NCBI GenBank assembly: GCA_015234045.1
Contig: JADFWU010000098.1
Location: 1-5,293 of the forward strand
Origin: Magnetococcales bacterium
Lineage (GTDB): Bacteria > Pseudomonadota > Magnetococcia > Magnetococcales > JADFWU01
Length of the DNA: 5,293 nt
Direction: 5' to 3'
A program made the position numbers and the translations under genes. This document shows positions 1,460-5,293 of the stretch, piece after piece (positions within the stretch are counted from its first letter, which is position 1; each line of letters starts with the position of its first letter). The notes under the pieces were generated by a model that worked only from the letters and a program-made list of their open reading frames with translations, made no database searches and had not been told where the DNA came from.

Positions 1460-2281
1460 CTATCGTTCGCTATAAACAGTTTCGGCCATTCCAGCCCGCT
1501 TGGCCAGTGCGGTTAATTGCGGTGCGGCCTGAGCCAATACTGTTTTTATTTGATGACAATGCGACTTGGTTAATTCAGTGAGATGTCCTTTTGGCTTGCC
1601 ATGGCGAAAATGTGAAGGTGCCAACCTTTCATCGGAATCAGCCCGCGCTTTCATGGCTTCAAATCCACTTGCTTCAACGATTGTCCGACATCGGTCAACA
1701 GTCAGTTCAATGTCCAAAAACGCTGCCAAAGAACGTACTGCTTCGGCTTTATTTTGCACCAACTGTTCATAACTGATGATCCAGGATGGATACTCTTGCG
1801 CCAATAAAAACATCTCTTGCATGTGTTTGAGATGAAAACCAAGTCCTGGCCAATGAAAATCGGGTTTAACCATGCCATTGATGATGGCTGACATCCCTTC
1901 CTGTCGGCTCATTCCCTTGAAATAGTGATCCACATTACGCCCACGTCCCAATTCCGCGTCAATATTTTTAGCAAAGTGATGGTACATGGAGACGGTCATA
2001 TCATAAATATTGCGTACCAACAGCACTGGCCGCCCATTCAGCAGTCTGATTCTATGACGCACTTCATCTGTAGGATGCAGATGCCAGGAGTAGTAGCTGC
2101 CTGGTTTAATTTGAAGCTGATCACTGTCCCGATAATTTACCCGACCTGGCGTGATCGGTGGTTCATGGAATGGTAAGCCCGTCAGATCCTCCAGAATTTG
2201 CCTTAGCAGATGCGTGCCTGACTTGAACAGAGTAAGATTAATAATCGGTTTTGCATCAAAGCGTGATAGTGCTTGAGTCAT
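1460..2281 (-). CDS. PAPS-dependent sulfotransferase (Sulfotransfer_1-like)
   Basis: This complete 273-residue protein is of normal length for a cytosolic-type sulfotransferase, which moves sulfate from PAPS to a hydroxyl or amine. The 5'-phosphosulfate loop is at 18-25 (LFKSGTHL), with K20 in the catalytic lysine position. The 3'-phosphate site is at 84-103: RPVLLVRN followed by YDMTVSMY, with R90 and S98 at the usual 8-residue spacing. YEQLVQNK (171-178) and FLDIEL (188-193) match the conserved late helix region. FRHGKPKGH (225-233) corresponds to the C-terminal RKGxxG-type loop that closes over PAPS. It is the last gene of the operon, starting 15 bases after the stop of the preceding sulfotransferase-like gene. 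Its Shine-Dalgarno is poor (a GGA about 10 bases upstream), so translation may partly depend on the upstream gene. The acceptor is unknown. The operon context suggests a glycan, but a lipid or small-molecule acceptor is not excluded. No signal peptide or membrane helix is seen. Confidence 0.9.
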   Translation of the reverse strand: MTQALSRFDAKPIINLTLFKSGTHLLRQILEDLTGLPFHEPPITPGRVNYRDSDQLQIKPGSYYSWHLHPTDEVRHRIRLLNGRPVLLVRNIYDMTVSMYHHFAKNIDAELGRGRNVDHYFKGMSRQEGMSAIINGMVKPDFHWPGLGFHLKHMQEMFLLAQEYPSWIISYEQLVQNKAEAVRSLAAFLDIELTVDRCRTIVEASGFEAMKARADSDERLAPSHFRHGKPKGHLTELTKSHCHQIKTVLAQAAPQLTALAKRAGMAETVYSER

Positions 2282-2296
2282 CTATTCAAATATCCA

Positions 2297-3115
2297 TTAC
2301 AGGGTGTAGCCGTACTCTTCGAACATAGCCAAAGTCTCTGGTTTAACAATCCGAGACCATGCTTCTTCCTTCCACTGAGGCCATGTTGCTCGCTCTTTTT
2401 CCAAATCGGTCAGGATGACACCATTGGCCCGTGAAGGAACATCCAGTCGTGCGTAGGTCTGTTTCAGGCGTTCTTTATCAAACTGAACTCTACCATGAGT
2501 CAACCAGGAGATGATTTTTTGAAAATAGTCTGGGCTCTCCACGATTCGCTCAAGTGGGTAGTTCACGTTAACACGTTTATCCGACACCATTCGGTTAAGG
2601 ATATCCATGCCTTGGTAGGCGCTCCAAATTGCGACATCTTCACGGCTGTACGATTTCAGATTCAACGCTGAAAAAGTATCATGGCAAGTCACTTTCCATT
2701 CATGATCCAGCGGCGTGGTAATGGTGGCAGGCATGCGCATATTGTTACAGCGCCAGGAGACGTAGAAATGGAGCCATGCCACTGGATGACGCACAACATT
2801 GATAAACCGTACCTGATCTCCGAACATTTCAGATAACGATTCCAACTGATAAGCCCGATAGGAATAACAGTCGCCAACAGCCGTATAAGGCATACCAAGA
2901 TCGGCAAGGAAACGCACGAACAGTGCTGTATCAGGCCGTTCATTACGCGCCCGTTCATGAAAATATTTCTGCCGAACCGCTTCACCGGCAAATATCATAA
3001 TCTCGGGATGGGCATTTAATGCCTTAGCCAACCATTCGAACCAGTGATCACCGGCGGTTCCGTGACTGGTAACAAAGAAAACATGGCTGTTTGGATCGGT
3101 CACCTGATGAGTCAT
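2297..3115 (-). CDS. Divergent sulfotransferase-like protein
   Basis: This complete 272-residue protein has the sulfotransferase layout: a first strand and loop at 11-26 (HVFFVTSHGTAGDHWF), then a helix ending LNAHPE, and a central strand and helix at 102-122 (VRFINVVRHP, then WLHFY). It ends with a tryptophan-rich segment (WPQWKEEAW at 245-253) and GYTL, a C-terminal style common in bacterial sulfotransferases. It differs from the canonical pattern in two places. The nucleotide loop has histidine (H18) where K or R is usual. Eight residues after R109, where the 3'-phosphate serine normally sits, there is F117 (the nearest serine is S120). By eye it is not a recent duplicate of the neighbouring 273-residue enzyme. 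The start is ATG 3115-3113, overlapping the stop of the glycosyltransferase as ATGA, which points to translational coupling. It may sulfate a different position of the same glycan, or have altered or lost activity. The family call is fairly secure; catalytic activity is uncertain. Confidence 0.78.
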   Translation of the reverse strand: MTHQVTDPNSHVFFVTSHGTAGDHWFEWLAKALNAHPEIMIFAGEAVRQKYFHERARNERPDTALFVRFLADLGMPYTAVGDCYSYRAYQLESLSEMFGDQVRFINVVRHPVAWLHFYVSWRCNNMRMPATITTPLDHEWKVTCHDTFSALNLKSYSREDVAIWSAYQGMDILNRMVSDKRVNVNYPLERIVESPDYFQKIISWLTHGRVQFDKERLKQTYARLDVPSRANGVILTDLEKERATWPQWKEEAWSRIVKPETLAMFEEYGYTL

Positions 3116-5172
3116 GAGGATGTCAACTCCGTCTGCCAGTCATCTGAAATCGCATGCACTTCATCTGTTGTAAGCTCAATAATACGTTGGGCGCAGTTGG
3201 CATAGGAGTGGTGAGCACGCACTTTTTCACAAACACGTTGCGCTATTTCTTTACGCTCCTGCTCATGTTCCAGATAGTAATTCACTTTCTCCAACAGATC
3301 TTTTTCATCATCAAAGAACACCACCTCACTACCCTCTTCAAAGTAGTCGGTCAGACGGGTATTATCCAACTCAGGCGCAATACGGCGGGTAAGCAGGAAT
3401 CCACCAGCGGCCATTACTTCCAACGCCCACATATGGAACGTTGTTCCACTTGAATTATTGATGCATATTTTTGATCTATTGATCAATGCGTTGAGAGGTT
3501 CTCCGTTTTGCGCTGGACCTTGGGCAGCCTGAGCCATACCGGGCACTAAATTCCAGTTATTGCCAAAAGTCTTTACCGCGACACCTTTTTCGGCCAAATA
3601 GCGCATTGGTTTTATTTTATTATTGGTATTCATGTGAATCGTGACACGAGACGGAACGGGATCACCAATCAACAATTGATGGATGGCATCACGGTCTTTC
3701 ACTCCGGTCAACGCGATCATTTGATCTTTAAACGCCTCGCGCTGTTTTGGATCTTTGAGGATCTCATGGTGTCGCCCCAAGGGAAACGCTTCAACCACGC
3801 CATATATTTTTTGGTAAAACGCTTCCAGGTCACTAACCTGCCAACTCAGTTTTTCCAACACAACCCGTTCAGCATACTCCAACTTTTCCAAACCAGTTCC
3901 TTGCTGAATATGGCAGAGTCGTTTCTCCGGCGGTGTGACATGCGACACATAGAGCACATCTATATCCTGATTGGCTTCAGGCAAAGGCCGATAGATATCC
4001 ACATTGGCGCTGATAGGTAAAAAATGGGTCGTACGCCCGTTGAACATCGGGTTATTTTCGAAATGGCCCTCTTTAATCCAAGACTGCGAAAAGCTACAAA
4101 CAACATCCCAAGGACCAAGGCGATTATCAGAAGGCTCGCGGACATTAGACAGTAGATCCTGGATCCAACTTACCAATGGAACACCTTCGGGAACAATAGG
4201 ATTTTCCCAACGAAAGTGATCCAGCAGAACCAAAAAATCCGGTTTAAACGCCTCTAATTTTTCCAACACATGGAGATTTGTTAATCCAGCCAGTTCATCG
4301 GGTTCAATCAAGCAATCTGTTTCACAGCCGATATCTCTAAACCCTTTGAGCAGATCGCGCATACAGTATTGTAAAAACGAGGTGTGTATGGAGGTCATAC
4401 CCATCACCCGTAGCGGTCGGTTCCGTTTTTCGGAAAAGATGTCACGCCACGCTTCAACTGGACGACTCTGATAAAAGTCGCGCAACATAGTATAACGCTC
4501 AACCACTTCAACCTTATGTTGGGCGTGAAATTGGGTTTCAACCTGCTTTATTATGTCGCTAACAAACGTCTTTTCCACATTGATCTCATGTAGGATCAAA
4601 TTGGGATAGCGATTCGTACTGACACGATAATAATCCATCATTTGACCACGTGCATTTTCTCCGACAAAGAACAGCACACGACCGGATAGAATCAGATCTC
4701 GCAGATCATGAATATGTAGAAAAACAATAAATTGACTAATATCCGGCTCCATTACAAAGACCGGCACTTTCAGGGTTTTCAGCTCTCTATGTGGTCTGCG
4801 CGTCTTATCATAGATCCAGAGCAACACATGGCCGATCCCTACACCTACCACCAAACTGATAGTTGTTTCGGACATTTCCCGCGCATCTCGGACGAGTTGA
4901 GCCAGGATCTGCTGCTCCTTCATTTCCACCTGACGTCCATCTGAGAGCCATACCCGTATATCTTGAAATTGTCCTTCCTTTATGACCACATCCCATGATT
5001 GACCACGCGGTCCACGATAATCCACAACAGCGCGATAGATTTCTGGAGAATGGACGCTTAACAGATTCATATTGGAGAGGAAATGTGATTCGAGAACCTG
5101 TTCGACACGGGCATTGACTGTAAGATGGAATGGATCTGTTGCATTTTTGCCTGCGTTGGTCAGCATGGCCAT
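3112..5172 (-). CDS. Maf-like/CgeB-like glycosyltransferase fusion, 686 residues
   Basis: This is the first gene of the operon. The C-terminal half (about 250-670) resembles CgeB/DUF3880-type GT-B glycosyltransferases: SWIQDL at 335-340, FLPISANVD at 384-392, DIDVLYVS at 403-410, FGNNW at 536-540 and an ALEVMAAGGFLLTR block at 583-596. In that block E585 and the Gly pair are where family 4-like enzymes bind the sugar nucleotide. The N-terminal part (about 45-200) looks like the Rossmann core of Maf/DUF115 proteins: a VVGVGIGH glycine loop at 108-115, VFVMEPD at 138-144 and a strand at 165-172. Maf proteins transfer nonulosonic acids to flagellin. Here the domain is joined to a second transferase type, so the protein may be bifunctional or use one half for acceptor recognition. 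Typical CgeB-like proteins are shorter, roughly 300-400 residues. No transmembrane helix or signal peptide is seen, so action is cytoplasmic. ATG 5172 is preferred over ATG 5166 because of Shine-Dalgarno spacing. The glycosyltransferase call is strong; the Maf relation is by eye. Confidence 0.85.
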   Translation of the reverse strand: MAMLTNAGKNATDPFHLTVNARVEQVLESHFLSNMNLLSVHSPEIYRAVVDYRGPRGQSWDVVIKEGQFQDIRVWLSDGRQVEMKEQQILAQLVRDAREMSETTISLVVGVGIGHVLLWIYDKTRRPHRELKTLKVPVFVMEPDISQFIVFLHIHDLRDLILSGRVLFFVGENARGQMMDYYRVSTNRYPNLILHEINVEKTFVSDIIKQVETQFHAQHKVEVVERYTMLRDFYQSRPVEAWRDIFSEKRNRPLRVMGMTSIHTSFLQYCMRDLLKGFRDIGCETDCLIEPDELAGLTNLHVLEKLEAFKPDFLVLLDHFRWENPIVPEGVPLVSWIQDLLSNVREPSDNRLGPWDVVCSFSQSWIKEGHFENNPMFNGRTTHFLPISANVDIYRPLPEANQDIDVLYVSHVTPPEKRLCHIQQGTGLEKLEYAERVVLEKLSWQVSDLEAFYQKIYGVVEAFPLGRHHEILKDPKQREAFKDQMIALTGVKDRDAIHQLLIGDPVPSRVTIHMNTNNKIKPMRYLAEKGVAVKTFGNNWNLVPGMAQAAQGPAQNGEPLNALINRSKICINNSSGTTFHMWALEVMAAGGFLLTRRIAPELDNTRLTDYFEEGSEVVFFDDEKDLLEKVNYYLEHEQERKEIAQRVCEKVRAHHSYANCAQRIIELTTDEVHAISDDWQTELTSS
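3127..3130 (-). promoter_or_regulatory. Shine-Dalgarno site of the divergent sulfotransferase-like gene
   Basis: GGAG on the - strand lies 11 bases before the ATG at 3115-3113, inside the 3' end of the glycosyltransferase coding sequence. With the ATGA overlap, it supports this start and reinitiation by ribosomes finishing the upstream gene. Confidence 0.5.
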
Positions 5173-5185: not shown

Positions 5186-5226
5186 GTACTCTTGAAAAAC
5201 TCAATTTTTAAGACTGCTTACCGGGT

Positions 5227-5241
5227 GTGGGCGGAGCCCAC
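5227..5241. repeat. Hairpin 1 of the REP-like element
   Basis: GTGGGC at 5227-5232 pairs perfectly with GCCCAC at 5236-5241 around a GGA loop: six base pairs, four of them G-C or C-G in a row. There is no T run on either side, so it is not a typical intrinsic terminator. Confidence 0.7.
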
Positions 5242-5261
5242 GTTCTAAAACTGGTTGGGTT

Positions 5262-5286
5262 GTAAGGGAGGCTGTGCCGCCCTTAC
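5262..5286. repeat. Hairpin 2 of the REP-like element
   Basis: GTAAGGG at 5262-5268 pairs with CCCTTAC at 5280-5286. After one A/G mismatch, GGC at 5270-5272 pairs with GCC at 5276-5278 around a TGT loop. Ten pairs with one internal mismatch is a strong structure and typical of REP stems, which often carry such a bulge. It is preceded by a small tandem GGTTG-GGTTG at 5253-5262. Confidence 0.72.
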
Positions 5287-5293
5287 CGGGTGT

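Follow-up and report, generated by a model that had tools for sequence, protein, structure and literature searches.

A sulfotransferase with an obligate, apparently degenerate partner in a Magnetococcales operon, and its possible role in sulfating a surface glycan

Introduction

A short operon of Magnetococcales joins one glycosyltransferase to two dissimilar sulfotransferases, and raises the question of whether the two sulfotransferase-like proteins act at separate sites or together, and on which glycan. The DNA analysed here (the window, 5,293 nucleotides) is the entire contig G000:C115 within the 3.65-Mb draft genome of a Magnetococcales MAG, and is occupied by four genes, one on the + strand and three on the - strand. 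Their features are as follows.

3112-5172, - strand: GT, a 686-aa glycosyltransferase that opens the operon (ORF; Glyco_trans_1_2)
4669-5076, - strand: GT aa 33-168, putative Maf-type N-terminal domain (BLASTP)
3178-3594, - strand: GT aa 527-665, Glyco_trans_1_2 domain (Pfam)
2297-3115, - strand: ST-B, 272 aa, partner with a predicted sulfotransferase fold (ORF; AF2 model, without a Pfam model)
3041-3067, - strand: ST-B aa 17-25, P-loop position SHGTAGDHW, without K or R (close-member alignment)
1460-2281, - strand: ST-A, 273 aa, PAPS-type sulfotransferase (ORF; Sulfotransfer_1)
2213-2224, - strand: ST-A aa 20-23, P-loop KSGT (homologue alignment)
102-1397, + strand: B12-binding radical SAM protein, convergent neighbour (Radical_SAM, B12-binding)

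Operon layout and contig ends

Transcription runs in the order GT, ST-B, ST-A, with a 4-base overlap between GT and ST-B and a 15-base gap between ST-B and ST-A, and the ORF coordinates thus bear out the three-gene - strand operon proposed in a preliminary description of this DNA. The radical SAM gene lies outside the range (1460-5172) treated in that description. Promoter- and terminator-like sites in the window occur at chance level, and an Rfam search of the window gave no match.

Positions 1-77, at the left contig end, are part of an element of about 160 bases with terminal inverted repeats (GGGCCACGGAAAAAATTAATCATCCCA...), which looks like a MITE and has copies at more than 20 places throughout the genome. 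Positions 5217-5293, at the right end, belong to a repeat unit (CCGGGTGTGGGCGGAGCCCACG...) that recurs at some ten further places in the genome; on contig C23 its copies are spaced 75 bases apart. Because both contig ends sit in multi-copy repeats, no gene context can be read beyond the window, and the context described below comes from other contigs and other genomes.

A canonical sulfotransferase and a partner of the same fold

By its domain and motifs ST-A is a canonical sulfotransferase of the PAPS-dependent type. Its match to Sulfotransfer_1 scores 57.2 bits (Pfam cut-off 22; 2.1e-15), and all motifs tested are present, namely the P-loop KxGT, the catalytic His, and the Arg and Ser of the 3'-phosphate site. 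Residues K20, G22, T23, H67, R90 and S98 are invariant in 10 of 10 aligned homologues, and the P-loop register is confirmed by alignment with KSGT of SULT2A1; H67, R90 and S98 we take to be catalytic or cofactor residues from what is established for SULT enzymes. SULT1C2 matches the ST-A domain of a Gallionella fusion protein (described below) with a Z of 17.8. An FRKG-type motif near the C-terminus is kept in some form by 8 of the 10 homologues and is missing from two Gallionella fusions. On these residues ST-A is probably the catalytic subunit.

For ST-B the assignment as a sulfotransferase is thin from sequence and clear from predicted structure. No family match was found in Pfam or NCBIfam, and the family that ST-B represents is new to Pfam. 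A structure predicted with AlphaFold2 from eleven homologues (pLDDT 83.7, pTM 0.83) brought sulfotransferases to first rank in Foldseek, and all 50 of the 50 entries listed by VIA-align were sulfotransferases, the best being Teg12 (Z 12.3, 210 residues, rmsd 3.7), with similarity spanning residues 8-272. A profile of eleven homologues extends to no more than the RHPY stretch of the CurM and olefin-synthase enzymes, with E values of 0.6-1.7. When the profiles of ST-B and ST-A were compared, no significant match emerged, so that it is the fold which points to a common origin of the two. The two dissimilar sulfotransferases first described therefore hold at the level of fold, ST-A by Sulfotransfer_1 and ST-B by its predicted structure.

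The putative PAPS site of ST-B differs from that of ST-A. No lysine or arginine occurs at aa 14-25, the P-loop position, in any of 10 close members; R109 is invariant, and a serine eight residues beyond it, at the 3'-phosphate site, is present only in the member L045. This pattern, read from the sequence, suggests that the site has degenerated, with another mode of PAPS binding possible. A distant ST-B-like protein (L091:205-1083, 26% identity), encoded in an alphaproteobacterial MAG, has the P-loop lysine; no ST-A relative was seen near its gene, and the protein may be an active, ancestor-like form of ST-B. No relative of ST-B turned up in collections of plasmids and viruses.

Pairing and fusion of ST-A and ST-B

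A search for ST-B across 48 Magnetococcales genomes gave five positives (G000, G002, G009, G013 and G035), which belong to five different families, and ST-A orthologues were found in the identical five, scoring at least 272 bits as against at most 78 for the next best. Of 81 genomes related to Methylomonas fluvii, three have ST-B, and ST-A (more than 260 bits, next 26) is present in the identical three. Neither gene was found alone in any of these 129 genomes. Under independence, and uncorrected for kinship, the probability of such exact coincidence is 5.8e-7 for the Magnetococcales and 1.2e-5 for the Methylomonas relatives. The two genes adjoin or overlap in all cases but G002, in which they lie 3.4 kb apart.

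In two Gallionella MAGs and a deltaproteobacterial MAG, and partially in a gammaproteobacterial MAG, ST-B and ST-A are fused as one ORF (fusion loci L086, L087, L088 and L090); those of Gallionella are 19% different from each other and so do not stem from one assembly error. The deltaproteobacterial fusion (L088:9971-12067) continues at its C-terminus for about 130 aa beyond what the Gallionella fusions have. An AF2 model of the fusion reached a pTM of 0.50, at which the domain arrangement is not confident. ST-A and ST-B are thus an obligate pair that is sometimes fused. Trees of both proteins place M. fluvii beside the Magnetococcales genome G009 (support 80/89 and 73/87), and this concordance suggests, with modest support, joint transfer of the pair between lineages; in agreement with such movement, G035 and M. 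fluvii share 63% identity in a methyltransferase encoded downstream of ST-A.

The preliminary description had taken two different sulfotransferases to indicate two sulfation sites or two acceptors. That both proteins are active, and sulfate two positions of one glycan in the manner of Agl30 and Agl31 of Halobacterium, would fit the sulfotransferase fold of each, and the fusion is compatible with enzymes acting sequentially; there is also a precedent for two different sulfotransferases acting on one N-glycan (PMC11980604). The ST-B P-loop, however, is without K or R and the 3'-phosphate serine is not conserved, and whereas the Halobacterium pair is reported to act independently, ST-A and ST-B were never apart in the 129 genomes. 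Two active enzymes are rather unlikely on this balance. Since the pair is obligate, at times fused, and one member is without PAPS-site residues, a single two-part enzyme is more likely than two independent sites, and the idea of two sites is not upheld.

The glycosyltransferase and the radical SAM neighbour

GT matches Glyco_trans_1_2 with 90.1 bits against a cut-off of 25 (1.7e-25, Pfam). A Maf-like domain had been noted in it previously, and this reading stands in part. GT aa 33-168 resemble the N-terminal domain of a deltaproteobacterial Maf (BLASTP 31.2 bits, 3e-5; shuffle z 7.8), in a single pairwise match; the similarity is under the Pfam cut-off, profile-profile comparison with the N-domain gave no match, and neither did pairwise comparison of the segment with two Methylomonas Mafs or comparison of whole-length GT with Maf profiles. 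The MptE-like catalytic core (PF01973) is absent from the Pfam matches of GT, which has Glyco_trans_1_2 instead, and with that core missing GT is not a Maf protein.

Full-length GT homologues occur in eight other genomes within the order, and GT is full-length in four of the five genomes with the sulfotransferase pair, including that of the window (p 0.003, hypergeometric). The genes thus recur together elsewhere, a point left open by the preliminary description: the pair in 5 of 48 and 3 of 81 genomes, and GT in four of those five. The radical SAM protein (Radical_SAM 8.9e-23, B12-binding 1.3e-11, Pfam) was considered as a further member of the unit and rejected. Its orthologues are found in 6 of the 48 genomes, 5 of which also have full-length GT and 3 the sulfotransferase pair; the gene thus follows GT more closely than the pair and is loosely associated.

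Gene context in relatives and in the genome of the window

In M. fluvii the pair lies at about 1485.1-1486.7 kb of its contig, in a run of genes for glycosyltransferases, methyltransferases, a cytidylyltransferase, LegB, LegC, NeuC and NeuB (the last four exceeding NCBIfam cut-offs), which goes on with a sugar nucleotidyltransferase, flagellin, FlaG, FliD, FliS, a second flagellin and a Maf-type MptE-like protein. On one deltaproteobacterial contig (G065:C48) flagellin is at 6.1-7.0 kb, a Maf with both Maf domains at 9.1-11.0 kb, the ST-B::ST-A fusion at 27.4-29.5 kb and neuB at 40 kb. Linked flagellin, nonulosonic-acid synthesis and Maf genes are thus found at both loci, which belong to lineages distant from the Magnetococcales. 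M. koyamae has the pair beside the same legionaminic-acid genes, with flagellins some 50-60 kb away.

The Magnetococcales loci give a different picture. Next to the pair lie genes for GT relatives, radical SAM proteins and methyltransferases, and no flagellin was found near the pair in the other Magnetococcales loci within the stretches read; nor does the window, a 5,293-nt contig ending in repeats, hold a linked flagellin or nonulosonic-acid gene. In another genome of the order a 1042-aa GT relative (G037:C177, L055, 5209-11543) has two flagellin genes within about 1.2 kb.

The genome of the window itself has 14 flagellin-domain matches, PseI (pseudaminic-acid synthase), PseC and APS kinase, all on other contigs, so that the components sought for flagellin, nonulosonic acid and PAPS supply are at hand in the organism. 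APS kinase, which is present in 15 of 16 and 6 of 6 genomes, also serves sulfate assimilation and is not specific evidence for PAPS supply to the pair. Tandem flagellin arrays lie on contigs C64 (L117) and C23 (L118) of this genome (G000), and a pseudaminic-acid type cluster on G000:C90 (L119) comprises PseI, PseC, an N-acetyl sugar amidotransferase and a radical SAM-like protein. The flagellins of the cultured Magnetococcales strain MO-1, which are highly glycosylated, number 14 (PMC7175107), as many as the flagellin matches counted here.

The earlier idea of a sulfated flagellin glycan is thus supported by the flagellin, Maf and nonulosonic-acid clusters of relatives, that is, by context and not from the window, and lacks a linked flagellin in the window and in the other Magnetococcales loci. 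Its chief rival as to the acceptor is that the pair sulfates another surface glycan, such as O-antigen, capsule or exopolysaccharide. In G002, G009 and G035 the pair is surrounded by genes for glycosyltransferases, methyltransferases, formyltransferase-like and radical SAM proteins, with no flagellin among them, and none is close to the Gallionella loci, as would be expected of such a glycan; the linkage to flagellin, Maf and nonulosonic-acid genes in M. fluvii and the deltaproteobacterium, and the GT relative that adjoins two flagellin genes in G037, argue the other way and leave this alternative fairly unlikely.

B12-radical SAM proteins and sulfotransferases are both found in natural-product clusters, and a pathway to a small molecule or lipid, in which the radical SAM protein would be a tailoring enzyme, would accord with these two enzyme types and with the weak similarity of the ST-B profile to polyketide sulfotransferases. 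The loci read are surrounded mainly by sugar-nucleotide and glycosyltransferase genes, and none for the synthesis of polyketides, peptides or lipids was recognised there. Such a pathway, which the preliminary description had set against its own proposal, is very improbable.

Proposed function and significance

In the reading that we prefer, GT, ST-B and ST-A would be co-expressed as parts of a surface-glycan pathway. GT would add a sugar to, or extend, an O-glycan built in the cytoplasm, and ST-A would move sulfate from PAPS onto that glycan, while ST-B, its PAPS site having degenerated, would bind ST-A and either position the acceptor or stabilise ST-A. The most likely acceptor would be a glycan of nonulosonic-acid type on flagellin. 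We hold this reading tentatively, with confidence a little short of even. The gene layout, the pairing and fusion, the predicted fold of ST-B, the motif pattern and the context in relatives are observed or computed, and we infer a physical complex, its catalysis and its acceptor, and flagellin as the carrier in the organism of the window. The more specific proposition, that of a two-component sulfotransferase with a catalytically dead obligate partner making a sulfated nonulosonic-acid glycan on bacterial flagellin, is doubtful.

An architecture in which a sulfotransferase is always accompanied by a degenerate partner of its own class would be unusual among these enzymes, and the pair would serve as an easily recognised marker of sulfation on bacterial flagellin or surface glycans. 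The idea can be tested directly in Methylomonas fluvii, a named strain in which the pair lies by flagellin and legionaminic-acid genes. More speculatively, added negative charge on the filaments of Magnetococcales could affect the packing of filament or sheath.

Comparison with known systems

In the open-licence literature no description of a sulfated bacterial flagellin was found, and the nearest system is the taurine glycan of C. difficile. The type B flagellin glycan of that organism likewise has a sulfur-bearing acidic group on a bacterial flagellin, but this is a sulfonate derived from taurine and not a sulfate ester added by a sulfotransferase (PMC5207245). Agl30 and Agl31 (VNG1056C/VNG1057C) of Halobacterium salinarum are, as in the present operon, two dissimilar sulfotransferases, and they serve one protein-linked glycan that is also on the motility filament; they are reported to act independently, and one is membrane-bound (PMC11980604). 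They differ in that the glycan is an archaeal N-glycan and in that no fusion or degenerate partner is described in the abstract (PMC11980604).

The Maf flagellin glycosyltransferases may be resembled by GT in the N-terminal domain, but GT has Glyco_trans_1_2 where Maf has the MptE-like catalytic core; true Maf genes share clusters with the sulfotransferase pair in Methylomonas and the deltaproteobacterium. With the tyrosylprotein and Teg/CurM-type sulfotransferases ST-B shares the overall predicted fold (Z 11-12), and with the CurM and olefin-synthase enzymes the RHPY stretch, but unlike them it is without the P-loop arginine or lysine, and the 3'-phosphate serine is present in one member only. 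ST-A has the same fold and all the active-site motifs of the cytosolic-type PAPS sulfotransferases (Sulfotransfer_1, SULT family), from which it differs in being always accompanied by ST-B. What is new in the present system, compared with these enzymes, is a sulfotransferase with an obligate and apparently degenerate partner.
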